Of a DNA stretch of 64,000 bases, positions 1,646 to 50,640 are shown piece by piece. The position numbers and the translations under genes are program-made. Source of the DNA: Halichondria panicea (taxonomy: Eukaryota; Porifera; Demospongiae; Suberitida; Halichondriidae); assembly GCF_963675165.1 (NCBI RefSeq), contig NC_087385.1, forward strand, positions 2,976,501-3,040,500. Direction: 5' to 3'. The notes under the pieces were generated by a model. The model was not told where the DNA came from and ran no database searches. It saw only the letters and a program-made list of their open reading frames with translations. How positions within the stretch are numbered: position 1 is the stretch's first letter; each line of letters begins with the position of its first letter.

Positions 1646-2043
1646 TACAGTATTGCACTGCACTGCACTCTCTGCAAACGGTTACTTCAGTCTGTTGTAA
1701 GAACTTTTTGTTGGACTAAACGTATACATAAGCTCAGTGTTAAAGCCTTGTACTTGTCAAGTAAATGAATGAAATGTTCGACATAAATTATACTACAATG
1801 TATATTGTACTGCTATAGATCCTGTAGAAACTTTTCAACAGAAATTCGAAGACATTTGTGTTCATTCCCAATGCTAAGAAGAGCAGAAAACAAAACTAAA
1901 CTAACTCTCTGATAATTATGTTTTTGGTATAATTATTTTTTACTTTGTATATGATTGGCACTTTGTATACGATTGGCTGAGATTTTTGTGGCTGGTTCAT
2001 TGACGACGGAAACAATTATTTTATTCATAATGATAATAGTGTG

Positions 2044-2742
2044 CAGTGTGGATTATAAGAAATCTGACAGGAACTGACTTATGTCAGACCATAACCAAAA
2101 TGCTCTGTCATTGTAGTATCTTGTTCTGCCATGACTGTCGCAAGGCCCGACTAATGAGGAAAGTCTAGGGTCTGAGACATGGATCTACCATGCATTATTA
2201 TTTATAGCTCATTGACGTTCATTCTGATAAAATATGATATGACAGTCTAATTATTAATAATTAATATGCACAAGTGAAAATTTAGTCATTGAACCATCCT
2301 ATAAGTATTCAGCCAGTGAAATGGTTGACTCATTTTCATCAGGACTGGTTGTAGAGCTAGATGTGCTTGTTTTGCTCAGATTCGCAACACAGTCATGGTA
2401 TAGTGTTTAGTGATCTTTCTCAAGTTCAATGGACTTGCCTCTTCCTACATAAACTTGTCTCTTAGGCTGTTTGACAGCTAAATGCTGAGAAGAGTGACAG
2501 TTAGAGGGCATAGCTAGCTACTTTACAATCTATTCTTAATTTCGCACGTGGCTATTTAGCTTGCTGAATCAGCATCCAATAGCAACTAATTAGCTTGCTG
2601 AATCAGCATGCATAGGGCGCATCTTGCGCAACTAGATCTCGAGTACTGGCAGGTCATTGTGGCAGCCCAGAGCTAAACTGACCGGTTATTTAGGTTCTTG
2701 GGTTGGTAAATAGCCGAATGCCGACCGTTATAATCCACACTG
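2044..2742 (-). mobile_element. Internally deleted hAT element (relative of 15920-18757)
   Basis: Both ends carry the 15-bp terminal inverted repeat CAGTGTGGATTATAA, identical to that of the hAT element at 15920-18757. The flanks are the 5-bp direct repeat GTGTG (2039-2043 and 2743-2747). The interior resembles the two ends of the long element. It includes its 5' non-coding segment (GCTTGCTGAATCAGCAT and then GATCTCGAG near 2550-2640) and remnants of both ends of its transposase gene. About 2.1 kb of the gene is missing. It is therefore non-autonomous. Confidence 0.85.
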
Positions 2743-3356
2743 GTGTGTCGTACAGGATTTTGAAGTAGAGGGGGAAATAAGTAGAACATTTTGCTAAAAA
2801 AAGGTCAAAAGGTTATTTCAATACCCTGTTAGTATGTAAAATTGCCAGCTATGGACCCCAACTAGTACCTGAATGCACATTTCAGGGGGAGAAATTGGAG
2901 CGTGCAAAAATTGCTGGCTTGCAAGTCTAGTCTAATTTTAACTGCAGTGTAATATTTTCTCTGAACCATGCTTGATAGCCAATACCAGCAACAACCTATC
3001 AACCTATAAATTTTAAACAAACAAGTTTACCTGAATTCCTTAAATCTGTCCGGATTTTCTTCAAACATTTTTCTCATCTGCCAATCTTTGGCAGCTTTGT
3101 AGTGGTTTTCGAGTGCTTTCCACTCGGGAATATCCACAAGAGATGACATGATAAGAGTGCAGCAAAGCTCAGAGGAACACGTACTGTATTAAACTTGCAG
3201 AGCACAAAATTAATAGCCCTTGTTTCTACTCTTGCCCGGAAAGGATCTATGTATAAACCACACCCACGGACAAGAAACCATGTATATACTCCCGGAGGAG
3301 GTTGGTCACGAAGCCAAAAAGTTATCTGTAATGTACGGTGGCCCTGAGTGCTACTC

Positions 3357-7572: not shown

Positions 7573-8955
7573 GGCGGATCAGGTGGAGTATACGGCACCT
7601 CGCTAATTAGATTCATAAATGAGTGGGCGTTTCACAGGAAGTCACGTGGGCTAACTGGGTGTGGCACTGGTTGTCATGAACACATTTTCATAGAAACAAA
7701 AATAATAAAGTGATTTGGATTGTTGGACAAGTTTACTGAATCATGGAATGAAAGAACACAACACTAAATGAATGAACACAACACTATTGAATGCATATGA
7801 ATGCCGCTGAATAAATGATTGTACCCGCTGTGGACTAGACTGGATATTGAGCAGCAATATCTAATATGATGTTATCAAATGACACTCTGTGGGTTCTCCC
7901 ACTTCTCTCTCGCCACATAAATTCATCCAAGTAGCTGGGTAGTTGATTACTGTCAACCCCCTTCATCCTCTTGAACTTCGTCTTACACCTATTCCAATAC
8001 GACTCGACATGTTGGGTGTGAGTTCCAGTTACAGGATCTACAAATGTGACGGAATGGTTTACAGTGCTGTGGCTGTTTACATTTGGTAAGCTACCAACGC
8101 CATTGTAGGCTGCCCATTGATCTGAGTGAACTATTGTCCCAGGAGCTACATGTGATTGGATAATGGGCAGAAGTGTTGCTGCTGTTCGGTTAGGAACTAT
8201 CTCCATGTACCCTAGGGCAGGAGAAACAGAAACGTCTACTAGTCCAAAAACCCATATCTCACTTGATGTGGCCCTTCTGCTGTATAGCATACAAAGTTAT
8301 AGCAACGTACACTAGTAAATTTTCACCTTAGGTTTATGTCGAAATAGAGATTGGACAGTGACCCCTGGCCCACCTAACACAACCACGGTCTGAAGCAAAT
8401 TGGCTGAGGAGACTTTTCTCAACCACTGGTAAGTATCAACAGCAGTATGCTCCACCAGCTCAACTGCTGATGTAACAGGGAACTCCCAAGCCCACAATTG
8501 AATCAACAGTAGCCATTTCTGTAAAGTTAACTTTGACTTCGAAAAGAAGCTCCCAGCACGGATCGATTTTCGTGTCTTACACTGCCTACACCACCAGCTA
8601 CTTCCATCACTAACATCTCGTCTTGGTCTCTCAACCATTGGTATATTGCACCTAACCATCATCTATATACTATTATCATTGTTTTGTGATGAATCAATTT
8701 ATTATTATTATTATGTTTTTAATTATTGTACCTTGAACAATCACAGCTAGATGCCAGCAGATGTTTCCCCCGAAGATAAGTAATAATTCTATCCACCCCA
8801 CCATACACAATTGGTCCTAACTCCAAGAAGGACATCCTTATAATTTGTTCACCAGAAATAGCCTTCAATTTCGCGCCAAACTACCGCCATGGCTATTTGC
8901 CTCGCCCACTCATTTATAATCTAATTAGCAAGGTGCCGTATACTCCACCTGATCC
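7573..8955 (-). mobile_element. Merlin (IS1016-like) DNA transposon inserted in the PAT-like element
   Basis: About 50-bp terminal inverted repeats begin GGATCAGGTGGAGTATACGG at 7576 and end, inverted, at 8955. The direct repeat GAAGGGGC lies at 7565-7572 and 8956-8963, an 8-bp target duplication as known for Merlin. Three extra bases (GGC) separate the left duplication from the matched repeat, so either the right end lost them or the left gained them. The interior encodes a broken IS1595/ISXO2-type transposase. Confidence 0.87.
7835..8662 (-). pseudogene. Merlin transposase (DDE_Tnp_IS1595 family), inactivated
   Basis: Two blocks lie in the same frame. The N-terminal one (8662-8312, 116 codons) has a zinc-ribbon-like WWCRQCKTRKSIRAGSFF segment and helical DNA-binding-type sequence. 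The C-terminal one (8290-7835, 151 codons) has IVHSDQWAAYNG, with the second catalytic Asp, and THTQHVESYWN followed by RCKTKFKRMKG, with the catalytic Glu. Two in-frame stops separate the blocks. The family's VxIDESLF motif, holding the first catalytic Asp, reads VQSLF here: the Ile-Asp-Glu residues are missing. An intron cannot rescue it, because the candidate GT/AG pair across 8326-8280 does not keep phase. This enzyme would cut and paste the element if intact. Confidence 0.88.
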
Positions 8956-15616: not shown

Positions 15617-15919
15617 ATAAATTAGTAATAAATAGGTTTGTCTATAAGTTCACCAGAGGAGGTTGGACGCGCGTCATCCACCGTCAGGTTTTATCACGTG
15701 CGCTCATAAGATAAAATGGCCGATAAGGGCACCTCGATGCTCCACTGTTTTGTAGGCTGTACAGAGACACTGCAAATAGCCAGAAGTGGTCTAGGAGCAT
15801 TCCCACCGCCCTCTCACCTTCCCTAAACTGCTGAAAAGATTCCAAGATGGATCTAGACTAGTATTTAGATTTTTTGACACTTTTCCAATTTTTGTTTAAC
15901 AGGATTATGATCGCATTAC
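15617..15919. other. Intergenic stretch with half of an inverted repeat
   Basis: TTCACCAGAGGAGGTTGGAC at about 15651-15671 recurs inverted at about 18868-18890, beyond the other side of the hAT element. The hAT element may therefore have landed in an older, larger element. No gene is visible. Confidence 0.4.
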
Positions 15920-18757
15920 CAGTGTGGATTATAAGAAATGTGAAGTGAACTGACTTATGTCAGACCATTTACCAAATGATCAGTCAAATAGATTCCTGTT
16001 CTGCCATGAATGTCGCGGCCCCCCCCCCCCAGAATGTTTTTGTATTTTAGATGCCTCGAGACATTTGATGGATTAATAGTCGTATAATTTTCTTGTCATG
16101 AATGATAATTATATTACACGTTCACATAGTTATTATGTAGGATCGAGATAATTAATAATTATACACATAATTAATGTATCAGTATAAGGTCAAAGGTGAA
16201 AATTTATTAGTTATCGAACCAGGAATCCCATTCATCCAGTGACAAGGTAGAGTCGGACTCAGCTTCGTCAGGAATTGTTATTGATGTACTTGTTGAGCCC
16301 TCACCGCTACGAGGAGCATACCGGTTGCGAGTACTCTGATTAGGTCTTCGTGTAGAGTCATTCCACCAAGTTTCCACAGCTTTGTTAGGTGAAAAATCTT
16401 CAAGTGGAGGTCCCTCTAGTCGAATTTCTAGAATGTCAGTTAGCATTTGATGACTAAGTTGTGTTCTACGATCTGTTTTTACCAGTTTCAAAGCCGAGAA
16501 CATTCTCTCTATGCACCCATTAGAAAAAGGGAGGCTAAAACATAGCTCACACAACAAAATGACATTTTCCCATCTGACAGCATCTGGGCAAACATGGAGC
16601 TTGTACCATACACTCTTGTAACCGTCTGTTTCTATTGACAAATATTGTCGAGAATACTCTAATACTTCAGTTATTTCGTCTTGAAGTTCCAGAATTCGAA
16701 CACCTACAGCCTCCAGGGGTTCTCTGAATGTGGTTGCTATTACATCAACAGCATTCTGAACTTCTGTGAGTGCTTTGTCCTCCGCCTCTGCCACTGGGGC
16801 GCGCCAAGTTTGGGTATCAAGAAATGTCAGTATTGCTCGAAGTAAGTTGACATCTGACCACTCAAGTCTCTCTCGCATGCTAGAATCAAGTCTTTGAACA
16901 TCTGCCAAGGCTTGGTCTCTGCATGATGTCAGCATGATGTCAACATAGCTTGGTTGTAGTTCTTTAGAGTAGCTCCTTGATACTCATTCCCAGCTGTTAG
17001 TCTATTGCAAATAAGCTTCACAGTCGGCCATTGTAGGGGATCAGTGTCGGTTAAGCTCTGTAGCGACTTCATAGATTTTAGAATGCTCTGTAAACTAGAA
17101 ACAATGTCCAGTTTCTCTTCTTGCAGCACCTTACTGAGCATAGACGGCACTTTTAAAGCATCCACATACATAGAGCATCCAATAAGTATCTTGCCTTGCT
17201 GCCACTTCAACAGATATCCTTTTAAACGAGCTCTGTCGGAACTTGAAACTGAGCGATCTTCTGCTAGAGATTCAAGGTGAGCCATGTACGCACCATAGCG
17301 ATCAACAATCCTCTGCAATGCCTGGCGTTTGTGCGAAATCCATCGACTACCCTCAGAGCGAATTGGGGTATCACCACTCTTTGGGAATTCAAACACTCCT
17401 CTCAGGTCACTGACTACTTCTGCCAGCTCTCTCAGTTTCTTTGGAGACTTGGAGTATAGGTAGTATAGACGGAGTAGCATGTCACTAATACCCTGAAATA
17501 GACCGCTGGTGAACGAGTCTTTACAAGCCAGCTCCAGCCTGTGAGCATAACACCACCCCCAAAAAATCCACGGGAGTGCTCGTTGCATTTTTCCTCGCAT
17601 ACCGTTGCGTTGACCAATATTTACTGATGCTCCATCAGTGCAACTACCAATTAGTATTGGCCTGCTCGCCAACACGTCAGCCTTCTCGAGCACACTATCA
17701 ATTCCAAACGGTTCTAGAGCTTGCTTAACACACACAATTAGCCCATCTGCATTGACTTTTGTAGGGACCTGGATACTGAAGAATCTAACAATGACCCTAC
17801 TTCAGCTTTATTTTTACAAAAGCCCATTATACCAATTAGTTCATCTTCTACATTGCCAGCATCAGTAGTGCCATCCATAAGAAAACTAAAGAGGTGGAGA
17901 TTCGACTGGATAGTGTTTACAAATTCATTGCGCTGGGTCATTGCTATGTACTTAGTAAACGATCGAGCTGAGTCCTTGGTCATATACGATTCCCCCAATT
18001 CTACACCATGACGTCTCTCCAACTGATGAATGGGTGAATATTTACGGAAAGCTAGGTTTTCCTTAGCAAGCATATAACATATGTCAAATTTTCTGCCCAT
18101 TTTCTCTTTCGTTGCTTGGTCCATTGGCCCAGACAGTAAGCTTCGAGCAATTGGAGCATACTCGATGAGTGGTGCCTTTGTTGCTTTTGCATGCTGGATA
18201 CGCATAACAGACATGGACCGCTTGTGTTGATCACTCTTGGCATGATCAAGGACATTGCTTAGCTTTTGGTTTGTTGATCCTTTAATCCAGACAGCAGAGA
18301 AGTTTTTTGTCCCACATATCTTGTCTTCGAATGTTCTACAAGTTTCACACCACAAAGTATCTACAAACTTGTCTTGCTCTGTACAACGCAGCCACGATAG
18401 AGTGCTGTGCTCTTTCTCTTGTTGGAGCTGCCACTTCTTAAAAGTTCCAACAGACACTTGTCTTTTAGGCTGCTTAGAATTCTGAGAGTGTCCACTGCTA
18501 GAGCTAGAGCGCTTTGATGCCATAATTAGCTAGCTAGCTATTCACAAAAACAATAACTATTTTTTTCACGTGGCTAATTATGATGAATCAGCATGCAATG
18601 AGAACTAATTAGCTTGCTGAATCAGCACGCAAATGCGCATGCGCAACTAGATCTCGAGTTCTGGCAGGTCATTGTGGCAGCCCAGAGCTAAGCTGACCAG
18701 TTTTTCAGGTGTTTGGGTCGGTTATTAGCCGAATGCCGACCGTTATAATCCACACTG
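15920..18757 (-). mobile_element. Near full-length hAT transposon with 5-bp target duplication
   Basis: The terminal inverted repeats CAGTGTGGATTATAA are at 15920-15934 and, inverted, 18743-18757. The flanking direct repeat is ATTAC (15915-15919 and 18758-18762), only 5 bp, where classical hAT elements make 8 bp. One long transposase gene on the minus strand fills most of the 2838 bp. A short deleted relative with the same ends and its own 5-bp duplication is at 2044-2742. Confidence 0.9.
16207..18523 (-). pseudogene. hAT transposase (TTF zinc finger, DUF4371, dimerisation domain), two frameshifts
   Basis: Three consecutive open frames make one protein of about 770 residues. 18523-17738 starts MASKRSSSSS, has a TTF-type zinc finger (WCETCRTFEDKI ... 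HAKSDQHKRS) and the DUF4371 block FLMDGTTDAGNVEDELIGI. 17735-16929 continues the RNase H-like core (CTDGASVNIGQRNGM, WGWCYAHRLELACKD). 16935-16207 ends in the hAT dimerisation signature LPFSNGCIERMFSALKLVK. The first break is a one-base-type frameshift at about 17765, where PTKVNADGL continues in another frame. The second is an 11-bp tandem duplication at about 16922-16943, so that MLTSC is read at the end of one frame and again at the start of the next. The gene resembles ZNF862-like host proteins, which derive from this hAT group. Confidence 0.9.
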
Positions 18758-18762
18758 ATTAC

Positions 18763-19139
18763 TCTGTTTCTCTTTAGCGTTCTCTAGCTCTTACTTGAGC
18801 TTTTACATTCTCACCTTTGACAGGTTTATAATTATCACATGACGTCATGATGATGCGTGTCCAACCTCCTCTGAAGTTCACCGTGTTTGATGCACTTCCT
18901 TCACGTGACCCCACCCCTAGACCGAGCTGCATGCATGGCCGGGCAGTGGACAAAGGGACCTAGGGCAGAGCCTCCAAGTATATGGTTTTTTCCGTATTTA
19001 TACGGATTTCTGTCTTCTAATACGGCAAAAATACAGATATACATGTAGATCCCTTTTGTCAGCTTTCAGAATAAGTTAACTGGTGAATGATCTAGTAGCA
19101 TCCTCTATGCCGTAGTGAGTCTGATACTGCACTGAAAGA
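18763..19139. other. Non-coding stretch right of the hAT element
   Basis: This holds the inverted partner (about 18868-18890) of the repeat at 15651-15671, and AT-rich sequence. No gene or RNA was recognised. Confidence 0.35.
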
Positions 19140-19620
19140 CAGCTATAAATTTATCTTATAAAGCCATAGATATAAGAAGGGAGAGGGATGGGAAACGGAG
19201 CACATGCGCAGAATCACTTCTGTGTAATGCCAAAACTTGATTCGCGTTTCGGCTCCGCCAACCCAGCGGGAAATGTTATTACTATCATTCACAGCTGCTG
19301 AGCATCCACACCTACTGTGCATCATATAGAAGCGTTGTGTATCTCACCAAGAGCTTGAAAACTTTCAAAGGCAGTTTTTTGAGTGTTGTATTATCGTTTC
19401 GGCTCTATCTAGTGGCTTTGTGTACCGGAGAGGCTGTGACTACAGCCCAAGTAGCTGTGCAAGTAAAATCAAAGCCTTTAGGTGGGTAAGTAATGGTCTT
19501 AGTAAGCTGGTTTTTAAAAGCAGACTTTTTGTGTACCCATTTAGAAAGTAAATGTCTCTTTGTATTCATTGATAGTTGGTTCATTGTATCGGCACAGTAA
19601 TTTACCAAGTCTCGCTTGCC
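19140..19620 (-). repeat. Dispersed repeat family R2, copy 2
   Basis: The complement of this stretch aligns with 780-1330, with several small deletions relative to that copy. It contains the shared blocks listed for copy 1. No intact frame is shared between copies, so coding function is not supported. Confidence 0.6.
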
Positions 19621-20194
19621 ACGCCCCTTTATTGAAGGGGCGGGGCAATTACAAAGCCAGCATGTTTTGTACTGAAAATTATCATTAAATACGGAAAAAT
19701 AAGTTTAAAAGAAAAGTCTCTACTTGGAGGCTCTGCTAGGGGACTAGGTAGGATAGCCTTGATAGTCTCCTATCATCTCATGTCAAGCAAAGCCAGAGTA
19801 TAATGTTCTCTGAGAAAAGCCATGGTCTAACCAAAATTAATCGTAGGAGTTTGACCCATACTAATTTTGAGTGCAGCAAAAGGGGGTGAGGGAAGTTAGT
19901 TTTTTGTGTGCACAATTCGACAGTCGCCCACTGAGGAGAATATTCAGTGCTCTATCTTGCTAGCAGGTGAGACAGTTTTGATAACAAAGCACAAAGACAT
20001 CCCATGAACAACAACAAAAGACAACTAGAGCAAAATTAATGCTCTCAATAAATAACTAATTAACATTCTTAACAAAAACCATGGAAACTATAACTAAACT
20101 AATTAAGTACTTAATTCAGGGTGTTCCTGTGGTTTGAGAATTCCTGCCATCGTTCTCAATTTGAAATTTTGCAAAACGTCCTTTTGTAAACATA

Positions 20195-20406: not shown

Positions 20407-20816
20407 TTAGCCTCGATCCCAGGCCGCACTTCCCACTAGGGAAGTGTGCCTGCATGCGCTAATATCGCTTTGATCTATGACATCACAACGAAAGGAAGTG
20501 GATTGAAGGAAGTAGTTCGATTGAGCCAGCATTCTCTGATAGCTACCCTTAGCCTTAACAAAAGACTCACAGCCTGCAACAGTGTGGATGACAATCATCT
20601 GAAAAGAGTGAGAGCCTATATGGACAGGCCACGCGTGAAAGTCTACTGCAGTACAACAAACCTACACAGCTCTGTCTCTATCTAGCTAGCTATATAGCTT
20701 GACTTTTAGGATATTTTCTCTGATGTATCCAGTATTATAGGAATATTTACGGGGGGAAAAATCCAATAATTTGGCGCAGCAGTCGATAGCAGGCCTTCTT
20801 TCAAAGGCCGGTGAAG
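20407..20816. mobile_element. 410-bp insertion in the copia element, 11-bp target duplication
   Basis: The target TTGCTCTTCCA (20396-20406) recurs as TTGCTCCTCCA (20817-20827). The element begins TTAGCCTCGATCCCAGGCCG and ends CAAAGGCCGGTGAAG. The two ends are not inverted repeats of each other. A longer relative in reverse orientation lies at 34002-34590. No gene is present. The absence of terminal inverted repeats plus a long duplication is compatible with a SINE. No clear pol III boxes were seen. Confidence 0.72.
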
Positions 20817-28200: not shown

Positions 28201-31200
28201 AAGAGTTTGAGCATGCGCAGGACTTAGCTAAAATTAATGCTAATATTCACAATTAGTGCATGAAGAAAGCTGTTTTAGGTAGTAGCACATGTACATGTAT
28301 GCTATCTATTACCTAGCTACTACTAGATGCATTGTAAATCGCATTGACGATCCGCCTTTCGGTCAACGTTTTCTTCTTTAGTACTAGGTTATAAACGATA
28401 GCATTTTATGGAGAATTCGGATGATTGGGGTTCGGATAATCGAGAACGTGCAAGGAGGCAATAGTGTACTTAGACACAGGGTTCTGCCCAGGAATTTTTA
28501 GAGGTGGTTAACAATGATGGGGGCAAAGCCGCCCATGCAGGGAGGTGTACAGGAAGGAGGACACAAATTTAAACATGCATGTGTTGTAAGACATGAAGTC
28601 AGTATTAACTGTAGCAAGTTGCTCACTCTCCTAGCTCTTAGCAGGTGCATGGTCCAACTCTCTGTTTGAAGGCAGAGTATAGCTAACTAGCTAGCTGCAG
28701 TACTCCTCGAACTCAACTGCAGCTTTTTAATATGCAGCTAGCAGAGCCAAGGTCAACAGGGCCACTTTTAATGAAATCATTAATCATCTTTTCCTGGTTT
28801 CTTGACCTTTTCTTAGAGCCAAGGTCAACAGGGCCACTTTTAATGAAAACATTAATCATCTTGTCCGGGCCTTTGCTTGGATATAGCAGGAACCGTTTCT
28901 GTTGCTCTTGATCATTTATTTGCCTGCTTGGAATGCTTGCTACCTACATCAAGTGCAGCAGCAAACCAGTACATCAACATTTATACTCGAGCTACAGAAG
29001 GCTAAAATTTCCCATAATTATCTTGAAGAATGCAGTCGAAGGTTGCAATTAAATTTGAGATCTCTTCTCTGAAGCTGGTTCGTTCGTCTGGGGCGCAATA
29101 GCTCAACTGATTTCTCTGTGATTATGAAAAGGATGAAGCTAGTGGTGCATAAACCCAGGGGCGCGAGGGTAAACTCAGTTTTACACAAACATAAGCGCAC
29201 GAAGGTTTCTTCAGAATATTTCATAGCATCATCTGTTCGCACAAACTTTTGTATTTAATTTATGAGTTACTAAAGCGCTAGCTGTTTCTTAGCTACAAGA
29301 GTCAGAAAAGAGCTGCAAAGCTGAATGTATGTACTGCCAGAAAGCAGCCCTTAATTGTGAACTCAGACCTCATTGCAAATCCAAATTACATTGACAAAAA
29401 TATGCAAAATACTTTTGTATTCAATCAGTAACATTGTAGATCTACACAGTCATGCTTCTACTGTGTAGCGTGAGGGGCTTAATTTTCGTGGATTTCGTGG
29501 GTTAGCAATCCTACACGAAAATTAAGTCCACGAAAATTGTAGAATTATCTGCTATAACGTTGCAAAGATTAAAGGCGTGGCTTCCAGTAAGCAGTCATTC
29601 CACGAACATTGTGCAACGAAATGTTTTTAGAGGTGATTCCACGAAATATAAGTGCCTTGAAAATTTCACGCCATACGGTATCTAGACTGGAAACCACTCC
29701 TTCTCTCTGGGAGAAGTCAAGCTGTCGTGTTGAGAGTTTTCCCTTTGGAATGCAATTAGAACGAGTGTTGCAAGCGTGCGCTTGCTAATGCCTCTCGCCA
29801 TATTTTTGCTTTCGCTCAAAAGTATTAGAGTGTTATAGAAGATCGAGGTAATGTTGAGAGTTTCCCTTTGGAATGCAATTAGAATGAGTGTTGCAAGCGT
29901 GTATGGGGTGCCTGCCGTTTGTGTCAAAATATTGATGATAAAAACACAAGGTTTTGGTGGTATTTACTAAACATTTGAGGGTATTTGGTAAACAACTGAG
30001 GGTATTTAGCAAAGGACTGAGGGTATTTAGCAAAGGACTAAGGGTATTTACTAAACAACTGAGGGTAGTTAGCAAAGGACTGAGGGTATTTACTAAACAA
30101 CTGAGGGTATTTAGCAAAGGACTGAGGGTATTTAGTAAACAACTGAGGGTATTTAGTAAATGTCTGAATGTGGAGATTAGTCAGTTATTTACTAAATACT
30201 CTCTGTTATTTGCTAAATACCCTCAGTTTTTTTACTAAACATGATACCCCCCCCAGTCCTTTGCTAAATACCCTCAGTTGTTTACTAAATACCCTCAGTT
30301 GTTTAGTAAATACCCTCAGTCCTTTGCTAAATACCCTCAGTTGTTTACTAAATACCCTCAGTTGTTTTAAATACCCTCAGTCCTTTGCTAAATACCCTCA
30401 GTTGTTTACTAAATACCCTTAGTCCTTTGCTAAATACCCTCAGTTGTTTACTAAATACCCTCAGTCCTTTGCTAAATACCCTCAGATATTAACTAAATAC
30501 CCTCAGTTGTTTAGTAAATACCCTCAGTCCTTTGCTAAATACCCTCAAGTTGTTTAGTAAATACCCTCAGTCCTTTGCTAAATACCGTATAGCGCGAAAT
30601 TTTCGAGGCACTTATATTTCGTGGATTGGCCTCTAAAAGCCATTTCGTTGCACAATGTTCGCGGAATGACTGCTTACCGGAAGCCACGCCTTTAAATATT
30701 TGCACGATAGCAGGTAATTCTAATTAAAGAACAATTTTCGTAGACTTAATTTTCGTGTAGAATTCTAATCCACGAAATCCGCGAAAATTAAGCCCCTCGA
30801 AAATTTCGCGCTATACAGTACCCTCAGTTGTTTACCAAATACCCTCAAATGTTTAGTAAATACCACCAAAACCTTGTGTTTTTGTCATCAATATTTTGAC
30901 ACAAACGGCACCCCATAAGCGTGCGCTTGCTAATGCCTCTCGCCATGTTTTTGCTTTCGCTCAAAAGTATTAGAGTGTTATAGAAGATCGAGGTAAATAA
31001 TTTGCAATGTGCTTTGATTGAAATGGGTGTCCACAGTTAATCAGCTTCAATTTGAGGCACTTCATTACACATGCGCACTATTTCATGGAAAAAAACCCCA
31101 CTGCTGGCTCTACTTTGAGCTTACTCCAGTCCCATAGAAGTCACCTAGTGCATATGCTACTGCGATCTTACTAACTGTGGAGTGCATGTTCGGTACCATA

Positions 31201-34001: not shown

Positions 34002-34590
34002 CTTCACCGGCCTTTGAAAGAATGCCGGCTATCGACTGCTTGCGCATGCGCCAAATTATTGGATTTTTTCCCGTAAATATTTCTATAATACTATAATAGT
34101 CTATTAGATTTTTTTCCGTAAATATTCCTATAATAATGGATACATCAGAGAATATACTAAAAGTCATACACAGAGCTATATAGCTAGCTAGCTAGAAACA
34201 GAGCTGTGCAGGTTTGTTGTACTGCTATTTTCTTCTGATAGAATCAGTAGCAGTAGTATAGTAGACTTTCACCAAAGTTAGTGTTAAATGGGCGTGGCCT
34301 GTCCATATAGGCTCTTATCAGCCGTCACTCCTTTCAGACGATCGTCATCCACACTGTTGCAGGCTGTGAGTAACATAACAGGCTAAGAGTAGCTATCAGA
34401 GAATGCTATCCGAAACCTTCAATCGAACTTTCCCTTCAATCCACTTCCTTTCGTTGTGATGTCATAGTTTTACTGAGCATAAACGATGTTATCCAAAGCC
34501 CCCAGATACCGGGGGGATATTAGCGCATGCGCAAGCAGTCGATACCAGGCCCACTTCCCGCTAGGGAAGTGCGGCCTGGGATCGAGGGTA
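34002..34590. repeat. Relative of the 410-bp insertion, reverse orientation
   Basis: CTTCACCGGCCTTTGAAAGA at 34002 and GGCCTGGGATCGAGGGTA ending 34590 are the complements of the two ends of 20407-20816. In between, CCCGTAAATATT, GGCCTGTCCATATAGGCTC and TCCACTTCCTTTCGTTGTGA match in order. This copy is about 180 bp longer, with internal duplications such as the GATTTTTTYCCGTAAATATT motif twice. No gene is present. Confidence 0.72.
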
Positions 34591-35432: not shown

Positions 35433-35535
35433 TAGCCTCGACCCCAGGCCGATCCGTCTCCAATTGAACGCTAGGTCGCCTACGTATTTTTCAACTTCGT
35501 TCTATTAAAAAAAAATCGGCCTGGGACCGAGGCTA
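35433..35535. repeat. Palindromic mini-element, TAGCCTCGATCCCAGGCCG family
   Basis: TAGCCTCGACCCCAGGCCGA pairs with TCGGCCTGGGACCGAGGCTA 60 bases later. Same family as 12983-13066. No target duplication was seen. Confidence 0.75.
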
Positions 35536-43018: not shown

Positions 43019-43343
43019 AACAAACAATTTTGTCAGTTCCTTCAACTTGTCTGTAGCAATTCAAGCAATTCACAATGGGCACGATTGATTTTCATCAAAG
43101 CAAGACCATTAAGTCGTTCTCCGACATTGTAGAACGGTGGGGTGTCTTTATGAGTTTCAACTGACTAAAGCTTCTCTCACTCTCGCAAGACGTAATTGGA
43201 AGAGTCAATGCCAATTGAAGAAGCATTGGGAATGTTATACAGCAACACACTTTGAGCGTGTCTACCAACTTTTTAGGAAGTTCAGCTTCAAAACAATACC
43301 CACATCCTATATTCAGTGGAGTATAACACTGTGTCTGGTGCAT
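43019..43343 (-). pseudogene. hAT transposase C-terminal fragment (family 3)
   Basis: On the minus strand, 43343-43095 gives ALTLPITSCESERSFSQLKL, then IKTPHRSTMSENDLMVLL and, after a one-base shift, ERLNGLALMKINRAHCELL (to about 43030). This is the hAT dimerisation signature (PxTSCExERxFSxLKxIKTxxRSTMxExRLNGLALM). No upstream catalytic core remains. No termini were found. Confidence 0.78.
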
Positions 43344-43349
43344 TCCACA

Positions 43350-44960
43350 GCAAGTAGTTGCAAACTAGTTGTCCTACAAAAGGAGTGATGTGTACACGGA
43401 AAGGAATGGAATGTACAAGGAAGGCAACAAATCAGTTAGCTCACTCGTACGCACATTGGGCCTTTGCCCGCGGCCCTCGGCACTCGTGCATGTGTCACAA
43501 CTATATTGCGTAACTAACAATAGATATAAAAAGTGTCTGATGTCTGTGGCTACTGCTTTACTGTCACACTATATATAGGTACGTGCCCTCTTTCGTGCCA
43601 CTGGTAGTAGTAGCTAGCTGTTTTATATCATGCAGGATCTGTTGTTTACAAGGATTGCAGCAGTCATAAGCAGTACGTAATTACAGGGAACGTGCCATCG
43701 GTAACATGTCAGAGAATTAAACGGTATACCTCATTGGCAGAGAATCGTATTTCTTCAGGATACTCTTTGATTCTTTGATGCCAGGATAAAGCACGAAGCC
43801 AGACAATGGAAGTAGCTGCTGTCTCCTGTACACTAATTGTATTGTAAAAGACTTGCCACAAGAAACGACAACACACGACAACACAAAAACGAGGATTCTG
43901 TATTGGACCCATTGATTCGTGGACAAATAAAGACATGCGACCGAAATATGAGCTCTTCCCACTTTTCAGAGTGCTGTATTTCTTCTTCAAAAGGCGATGT
44001 AGACTCCAGCCAAGTCGTATATTGTAGGTTCTACAGTGACGGCTACACTCACTATATGTAAGCTACTTTTTACTGTCTGATTGAACCTAGCTAGCTAGGC
44101 CAGCATATGTTCTAGGCTCAACTTACCAACTTGAGTGGGTGACTCGGTGACTCGGCAGTAGGGGCACAGACTGTGTCAGCATCAGCACAGAGTGTCAGAA
44201 ACTTGACTTCAGGAGACTGTGGCAGTAGGGTTGAGCTAACCACATAGAGCATTTTGTACTTTTTACTAGCATTCGCCCATTGTAGTAGGTGTAGAGAAGC
44301 CATCTCTTTCTCTTCTTCGCAAAACACCAGGAGTTGCATCTTCTTTTATACGCCCTTGAGAGTACGAATTTTCAAGTCGTCCCAGTTCTGAAATTGAAAT
44401 TGTATATGTACATTAATTACATGTAGCGTATGTAAAATGGATGCACATACTATGCATAGGGGGGCATCTTCTAGAATTAATTGTACACTCACACATACCT
44501 GATTATCTGGTGAGACCATATAGTGCATTTTTGGAGTGATAGACTCATTGGGGTAACATTGGGAAAACAGTTGATTGTGTTGGGCTCCCAGAATTCCAGC
44601 TGGTAACTACTCAAGCTGTACAAAACTCAAAACTTCGCATAGCAGGAAACACGGCAAATTCATCCACATCTGAGCAGCTAGCACGAGTAAAGCTCACATG
44701 ACTCAGCCACATTTGAACCAGCCTGCCTTAACGAGTGAAGGTTTGTCTTTTGCCTCAAGTGGAATATGAATACAAATAATTATGATTGTATGCAGTCATT
44801 CAGTTCATTCAATGTGATAAACTTTTCGACAACAAATTTTCGAATCATTACAGAGAATTCGTAGGGCCTCAAAAAAGAACGTGCTGAGGCAAACCTTCAA
44901 CATCATTTAACGGGCTTGAAAGTTTATGCCATACGTTGTGTAGTGGCAGTGAGCCTTTCG
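43350..44960. other. No supported gene
   Basis: Minus-strand frames at 43709-43990 and 44118-44339 are open, but I see no motif, no splice-phase support and no second copy. They may be exons or chance. Confidence 0.3.
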
Positions 44961-49974: not shown

Positions 49975-50640
49975 TACTTTAAAAATTCATTGAAATGACT
50001 TGTAAATATTTCCTACAGGTAGCGCAGACCTCAGAGGTATCTTGACACCATCATCACCCCTAGCAACTGACCACCCCCCTAATTAGCGATTACATAATTA
50101 TTGTATGAAGGCACAAAGTGACTAAAGACACGTGTTCTCACGGAGACATGGTTCAAGCAGGATCAGCAGAAACTTGTCTGTGAGGTCACATCGGCAGACG
50201 CCATTTTCCCGGGAAATGTTTTCTTCACCTACACACAGGGCTCATGATGTCCAGGGCTCATGATGTCCACTGCTGTACTATCAAGGCTACAGATGCTACT
50301 CTCTAGCTTAGTCCATCCCAAGAGCTTCTTCTACAGGCTCTTTATTTTCTAGCTTGAGGTAGTTTAATATCTAGCTATGACTGTCCTCTCACTCAACAAG
50401 GCCATAAGCATCGTTCTCCTCACTGTCTAGCTGCCCACTGAGGTTGTACTAAGAAGAGCCATTATCAATTAGTCACATGCAGTCACTTTTATTTGAGCAG
50501 TACTGTTGTTGTGCGAAGCGTACCTTGAGGCAAGATATTAAATATACCACGTGAAAGAGCAGCTCAATGCTGGTACCTACAGCGTGTGCATAGCTCCAAC
50601 ACTCCAACACAGTGTGGACAACAATTTTTACAGTGGTGCG
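49975..50640. repeat. Repeat family R1, tandem copy 1
   Basis: The repeat starts with AAAAATTCAT, then TTCCTACAGGTAGCGCAGAC, then GTCACATCGGCAGACGCCAT, then GCTCATGATGTCC, and ends with GAGCAGCTCAATG near 50570. A second copy in the same orientation begins about 840 bp downstream at 50817. It has decayed independently. Confidence 0.75.

Follow-up and report, generated by a model that had tools for sequence, protein, structure and literature searches.

A DNA element with the features of a hAT transposon, lying in a 64,000-nucleotide stretch of the Halichondria panicea genome (the window; contig NC_087385.1), is flanked by 5-bp target site duplications (TSDs) rather than by the usual 8 bp. The locus raises the question of whether this length reflects the way in which the element transposes or a chance agreement of flanking bases and, if the former, whether it sets the element apart from hAT groups already described.

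Results

Two elements share their ends and the length of their duplications

The features of the long element and of its short relative are as follows (TIR, terminal inverted repeat).

15920..18757, minus strand (transposase on the minus strand): hAT-like DNA transposon, 2838 bp, with perfect 15-bp TIRs, a 5-bp TSD and transposase pieces
15920..15934, plus strand: left TIR CAGTGTGGATTATAA, 15/15 against the right end
18743..18757, minus strand: right TIR CAGTGTGGATTATAA, perfect reverse complement of the left end
15915..15919, plus strand: left TSD ATTAC, exact flanking repeat
18758..18762, plus strand: right TSD ATTAC, exact flanking repeat
2044..2742, minus strand: internally deleted non-autonomous relative, 699 bp, with the same 15-bp TIRs CAGTGTGGATTATAA (15/15)
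2039..2043, plus strand: left TSD GTGTG, exact flanking repeat
2743..2747, plus strand: right TSD GTGTG, exact flanking repeat

An earlier note on this DNA had reported these coordinates, the shared 15-bp terminus and the 5-bp repeats ATTAC and GTGTG, and all of them proved exact, with TIRs matching at 15/15 positions in both elements. Past these 15 bp, the left and right ends show no similarity in either element. In each case the flanks are identical over 5 bp and agree at just 2 of 8 positions when 8 bp are compared, and the 5-bp repeat is the sole exact direct repeat of 5-11 bp even when either boundary is moved by up to 6 bp. The TIR and the length of 2838 bp fall within the ranges given for the hAT superfamily in excerpts of PMC3942097 (TIRs of 10-25 bp, 2.5-5 kb in total). 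The usual 8-bp TSD is absent, both copies (2/2) having 5 bp, which is compatible with a hAT because TSDs of other lengths have been published for some hAT subgroups.

In local alignments, the short copy matches the long element on its left side at 15920-16372 (297 identities over 350 aligned bases) and on its right side at 18368-18757 (307/348). Both alignments share 2366-2426 of the short copy, which fixes the deletion point only approximately. The beginning of the transposase gene has left a trace at 2401-2472 (tblastn with transposase piece 1, E 0.017). Judged by these alignments, the short element arose by internal deletion, and its parent was more likely a relative than the 15920-18757 copy itself, because the two copies diverge. 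By inspection, the duplicated bases and the adjoining flanks differ between the two sites, in keeping with the view of the earlier note that the insertions are independent.

The 5-bp repeats exceed the chance level

Counted over the whole window at the spacings of the two elements, identical 5-bp words are found at 78 of 61152 and 79 of 63291 positions (0.0013 and 0.0012), and the product of the two chances is about 1.6e-6 if they are independent. Any exact repeat of 5-11 bp is found at 99/61138 and 121/63277 positions. Flanking identity no better than chance was one of the outcomes that, in the earlier note, would have told against its claim; the chance of such a match is about 0.0013 per copy.

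We also scanned the window blind to the elements, taking outward-maximal exact 12-bp inverted pairs at most 8 kb apart, with ten first-order Markov sequences as the control. Flanking repeats of 5-10 bp without mismatch accompanied 4 of 263 inverted pairs in the window and 0 of 325 in the Markov sequences; the comparison was made per pair because other repeats raise the number of inverted pairs in the window (263, against 25-38 per random sequence). From per-position rates of 0.0013-0.0019, about 0.3-0.5 of the 263 pairs would be expected to carry such a repeat by chance. The four positive pairs are the long element, the short element, the older element with an 8-bp repeat in which the long one is inserted, and a T-rich pair at 34108/37854, whose 5-bp repeat we regard as doubtful and which we left out of the family count.

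The long element sits inside an older element with an 8-bp duplication

The host element is split into the following parts.

15654..15919, plus strand: left part of an older TIR element (ends 23/25 identical; 377 bp without the insert)
18763..18873, plus strand: right part of the older TIR element (one ATTAC copy omitted)
15646..15653, plus strand: left 8-bp TSD AAGTTCAC of the older element
18874..18881, plus strand: right 8-bp TSD AAGTTCAC of the older element

The pair scans identified its ends, CAGAGGAGGTTGG, at 15654 and 18873, with the exact 8-bp flanking repeat AAGTTCAC. Removing the long element together with one ATTAC restores a 377-bp TIR element with an 8-bp TSD, its ends matching at 23 of 25 bases, and therefore the long element jumped into the older one. 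A 5-bp and an 8-bp insertion are thus nested at one locus, and since the same scan picks up the 8-bp host, the 5-bp result is not due to a method blind to longer duplications. From its CAG ends and its 8-bp duplication, the older element may be a hAT MITE; we saw no coding part in it, and blastn found no second copy of it, filled or empty, in the window.

Adjoining the 5-bp element, 18966-19735 has a perfect 15-bp TIR (CAGAGCCTCCAAGTA) and a 6-bp flanking repeat, CTAGGG, and is a candidate element with a 6-bp TSD. Its inner part recurs on the opposite strand at 786-1331, without the ends.

The transposase is broken and hAT-like

Three overlapping open pieces lie on the minus strand of the long element.

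17738..18529, minus strand: transposase piece 1, 263 aa, with a probable zinc finger (sub-threshold zf-C17orf113) and the first putative catalytic Asp (MDGTTD, by eye)
16929..17801, minus strand: transposase piece 2, 290 aa, with the second putative Asp (CTDGASVN) and a CxxH-like CYAH (motifs by eye)
16207..16983, minus strand: transposase piece 3, 258 aa, with the putative catalytic Glu (CIERMFS) and a putative hAT dimerisation region (sub-threshold Dimer_Tnp_hAT)

Two breaks interrupt the transposase frame, and for this reason the copy is probably dead. hAT transposases use a catalytic Asp, Asp and Glu together with CxxH, and MDGTTD, CTDGASVN, CYAH and CIERMFS follow one another in the hAT order, as judged by eye. 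In Pfam, piece 1 matched zf-C17orf113 (PF25431) at E 7.4e-6 as a whole and at E 1.5e-6 as an N-terminal sub-piece, the latter scoring 28.4 bits, short of the cut-off of 29.5. Piece 3 matched Dimer_Tnp_hAT (PF05699) and no other Pfam model, at E 0.029 for the whole and 0.015 for the sub-piece, with 14.6 and 15.5 bits, below the cut-off of 21.4. Based on the motifs read by eye and on these two sub-threshold matches, we describe the transposase as hAT-like.

The remaining matches all lay under their cut-offs and were judged to be chance or uninformative: DUF5580, the sole Pfam match of piece 2 (E 0.00063); an antiporter subunit from NCBIfam for piece 3 (E 0.025); and zf-C2H2_14 for piece 1 (E 0.42 and 0.049). 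Searched by sequence, pieces 2 and 3 matched no solved hAT structure; the sole match of piece 2 among solved structures was YqeY (E 0.0063), and piece 3 had none. Predicted structures of two of the three pieces had mean pLDDT values of 43.2 and 42.8, too low for a fold search.

The earlier note had called the transposase DUF4371/ZNF862-like. DUF4371 gave no match up to E 1 with the whole pieces or up to E 10 with four sub-pieces, in a search whose HMMER filters drop most weak matches; this absence is weak evidence, as the stretch in question may be split by a frame break, and the label stays unproven. The ZNF862-like part of the description can be kept as a suggestion drawn from the sub-threshold zinc finger, zf-C17orf113 being a domain of ZNF862-like proteins.

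Elsewhere in the window, an open piece at 43095-43364 (minus strand) resembles the hAT C-terminal dimerisation region, both by eye and by tblastn of piece 3 (E 0.022), and is possibly the relic of a second, different hAT. On the same strand, 7835-8296 encodes a DDE_Tnp_IS1595 domain (E 1.9e-19), a Merlin-like transposase piece on the presumption that this domain is linked to Merlin. A 103-bp MITE-like element at 35433-35535 has ends TAGCCTCG (11/13 identical) and lies between exact 9-bp copies of AGAGACTGC. Finally, 29917-30597 holds two mutually inverted blocks of repeats, the repeats following one another at about 21 bp, with near-identical 80-nt repeats on either side at 29772 and 30917.

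Search for further copies

No third copy was found within the window, as blastn with each element returned just the other. Ten sites in the window lie within 3 mismatches of the 15-mer CAGTGTGGATTATAA; only four of them are exact, namely both ends of each element. In a scan of CAG/TAG pairs, 6 of 333 were flanked by an exact repeat of 4-10 bp; one of these six, the pair 32259/33888, was rejected as TSD-bearing, being part of a longer inverted repeat with a palindromic GCATGC flank. The sites at 20580 (plus strand) and 34342-34356 (minus strand), whose spacing (>6 kb) is beyond the reach of the pair scan, were examined separately. They were rejected as family ends, since they form part of a 47-bp inverted repeat that lacks flanking direct repeats of 2-11 bp. 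The arms of that inverted repeat (20565-20611 and 34325-34371) are 13.7 kb apart and identical at 44 of 47 positions; it contains CAGTGTGGATGAC and begins 15 bases before the site. The site at 50610 has little likeness to that at 20580 beyond the site itself (20 and 23 of 50 flanking bases).

Among viral contigs, a DNA scan with the right-end 18-mer returned nothing. Of the three transposase pieces, one had no pattern match there and the others had 10 and 6, none of them a confirmed relative. A protein search of plasmids and phages with piece 2 gave no match. Among prokaryote genomes, the right-end 20-mer matched once, in Pedobacter, where about 0.5 matches would be expected from an estimate based on collection size. 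The bases past the 20-mer differ from those of the window, and the sequence of the locus ends 28 bases past it, too short for a second end. Allowing up to 2 mismatches, the Pedobacter genome has 11 sites, only this one of them on its contig, against 9 for a reversed control pattern. We took the match as chance.

Discussion

In this study, we have examined two insertions that share 15-bp ends and a 5-bp duplication. Based on our results, we put at roughly 0.85 the probability that the long element is a decayed hAT cut-and-paste transposon with a 5-bp TSD, most likely of the hAT5 group, and that the short one is a deleted derivative of a related copy, moved in trans. Counting against this reading are the small number of copies (two), the sub-threshold level of both hAT-related profile matches, the score of an unrelated model, DUF5580, on piece 2, the low pLDDT of the two predicted structures and the failure of pieces 2 and 3 to match a solved hAT structure. 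The most likely mechanism is ordinary hAT cut-and-paste transposition. The 5-bp duplication is observed at both insertions; the enzymatic steps that would produce it are taken from what is known of hAT elements. A transposase would bind the 15-bp ends and excise the element, whose two 3' ends would then be joined to target strands at positions 5 bp apart; filling of the resulting 5-base gaps by the repair machinery of the host would create the duplication. The short element would have been moved in trans by a transposase.

The evidence on TSD length comes from two copies, and this leaves some room for an ordinary 8-bp hAT family in which both copies happen to show a chance or decayed 5-bp match, all the more as BuT2, a hAT with DUF4371, makes 8 bp according to excerpts of PMC3942097. 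This reading is scarcely tenable when just 2 of 8 positions agree over 8 bp and the exact 5-bp matches abut the TIRs, each with a chance of about 0.0013. That both hAT-related profile matches are sub-threshold would fit a different superfamily, one which makes 5-bp duplications and merely resembles hAT. Against such an origin, which we consider very unlikely, stand the order of MDGTTD, CTDGASVN, CYAH and CIERMFS, which is that of hAT transposases (by eye), and the fact that piece 3 matches no Pfam domain other than that of hAT dimerisation.

A further possibility is that a separate hAT lineage reached 5-bp duplications by convergence, apart from the hAT5 of Repbase. TSD length does vary within hAT (hAT5, hAT6 and hAT7), and hAT7 groups apart in the tree described in excerpts of PMC12730594. 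We nevertheless hold convergence to be unlikely, as nothing that we found points to a separate origin and simple membership of hAT5 needs fewer assumptions. It is similarly doubtful that the 5-bp stagger arose independently and that the three insertions within about 4 kb (the 8-bp host, the 5-bp insert and the candidate 6-bp-TSD element at 18966-19735) are traces of several hAT lineages that differ in stagger and share a genome.

Returning to the reading as a hAT5 transposon, the 5-bp hAT-like element probably belongs to an already described category. The earlier note had mentioned a hAT5-type group, and such a group exists: excerpts of PMC9004415, referring to Putnam et al. 2007, describe hAT5 in some invertebrates and fish, with unusual 5-bp TSDs, and those of PMC12730594 name the 5-bp and 6-bp families hAT5 and hAT6, with reference to Kapitonov and Jurka 2007 in Repbase Reports. 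A 5-bp hAT is thus not new, such families having been published as hAT5 in both sources. Because descriptions of hAT5 elements with 5 bp go back to 2007 (as cited in PMC12730594), the picture of hAT transposition is unchanged. What the locus adds is a two-copy, statistically clean 5-bp hAT-like example with an 8-bp contrast at the same place, a useful record for annotation.

The name hAT5 alone is insufficient for such an assignment, since in excerpts of PMC6004678 hAT-5 is something else, an Ac-family element with 8-bp TSDs, and hAT5_DR in those of PMC3517528 is likewise something else, an element among the Buster elements. hAT5 is also mentioned in Hydra (PMC12220107) and in the pond snail (PMC6128900), in excerpts of both papers, and the TSDs treated in PMC8721813 are of 8 nt.

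Among known systems, the hAT5 group resembles our elements in combining 5-bp TSDs (here in 2/2 copies) with a hAT-type transposase, a likeness drawn from published description. In the parts of PMC12730594 that deal with these groups, hAT5 and hAT6 fall within a lineage that also includes Blackjack and further hATs of animals, whereas hAT7, defined there, groups with fungal and plant hATs, apart from hAT5 and hAT6; hAT6 and hAT7 also depart from 8 bp, but with TSDs of 6 and 7 bp. The BuT2 / Tip group, as described in excerpts of PMC3942097, has a hAT dimerisation region, as the long element putatively does, and a similar length (BuT2, 2775 bp). BuT2 differs in having a detectable DUF4371 domain and being flanked by 8-bp TSDs, unlike the long element with its 5-bp TSDs and no DUF4371 match, and its pairing of DUF4371 with 8 bp speaks against the suggestion in the earlier note that a DUF4371/ZNF862 type of enzyme is tied to the 5-bp stagger.
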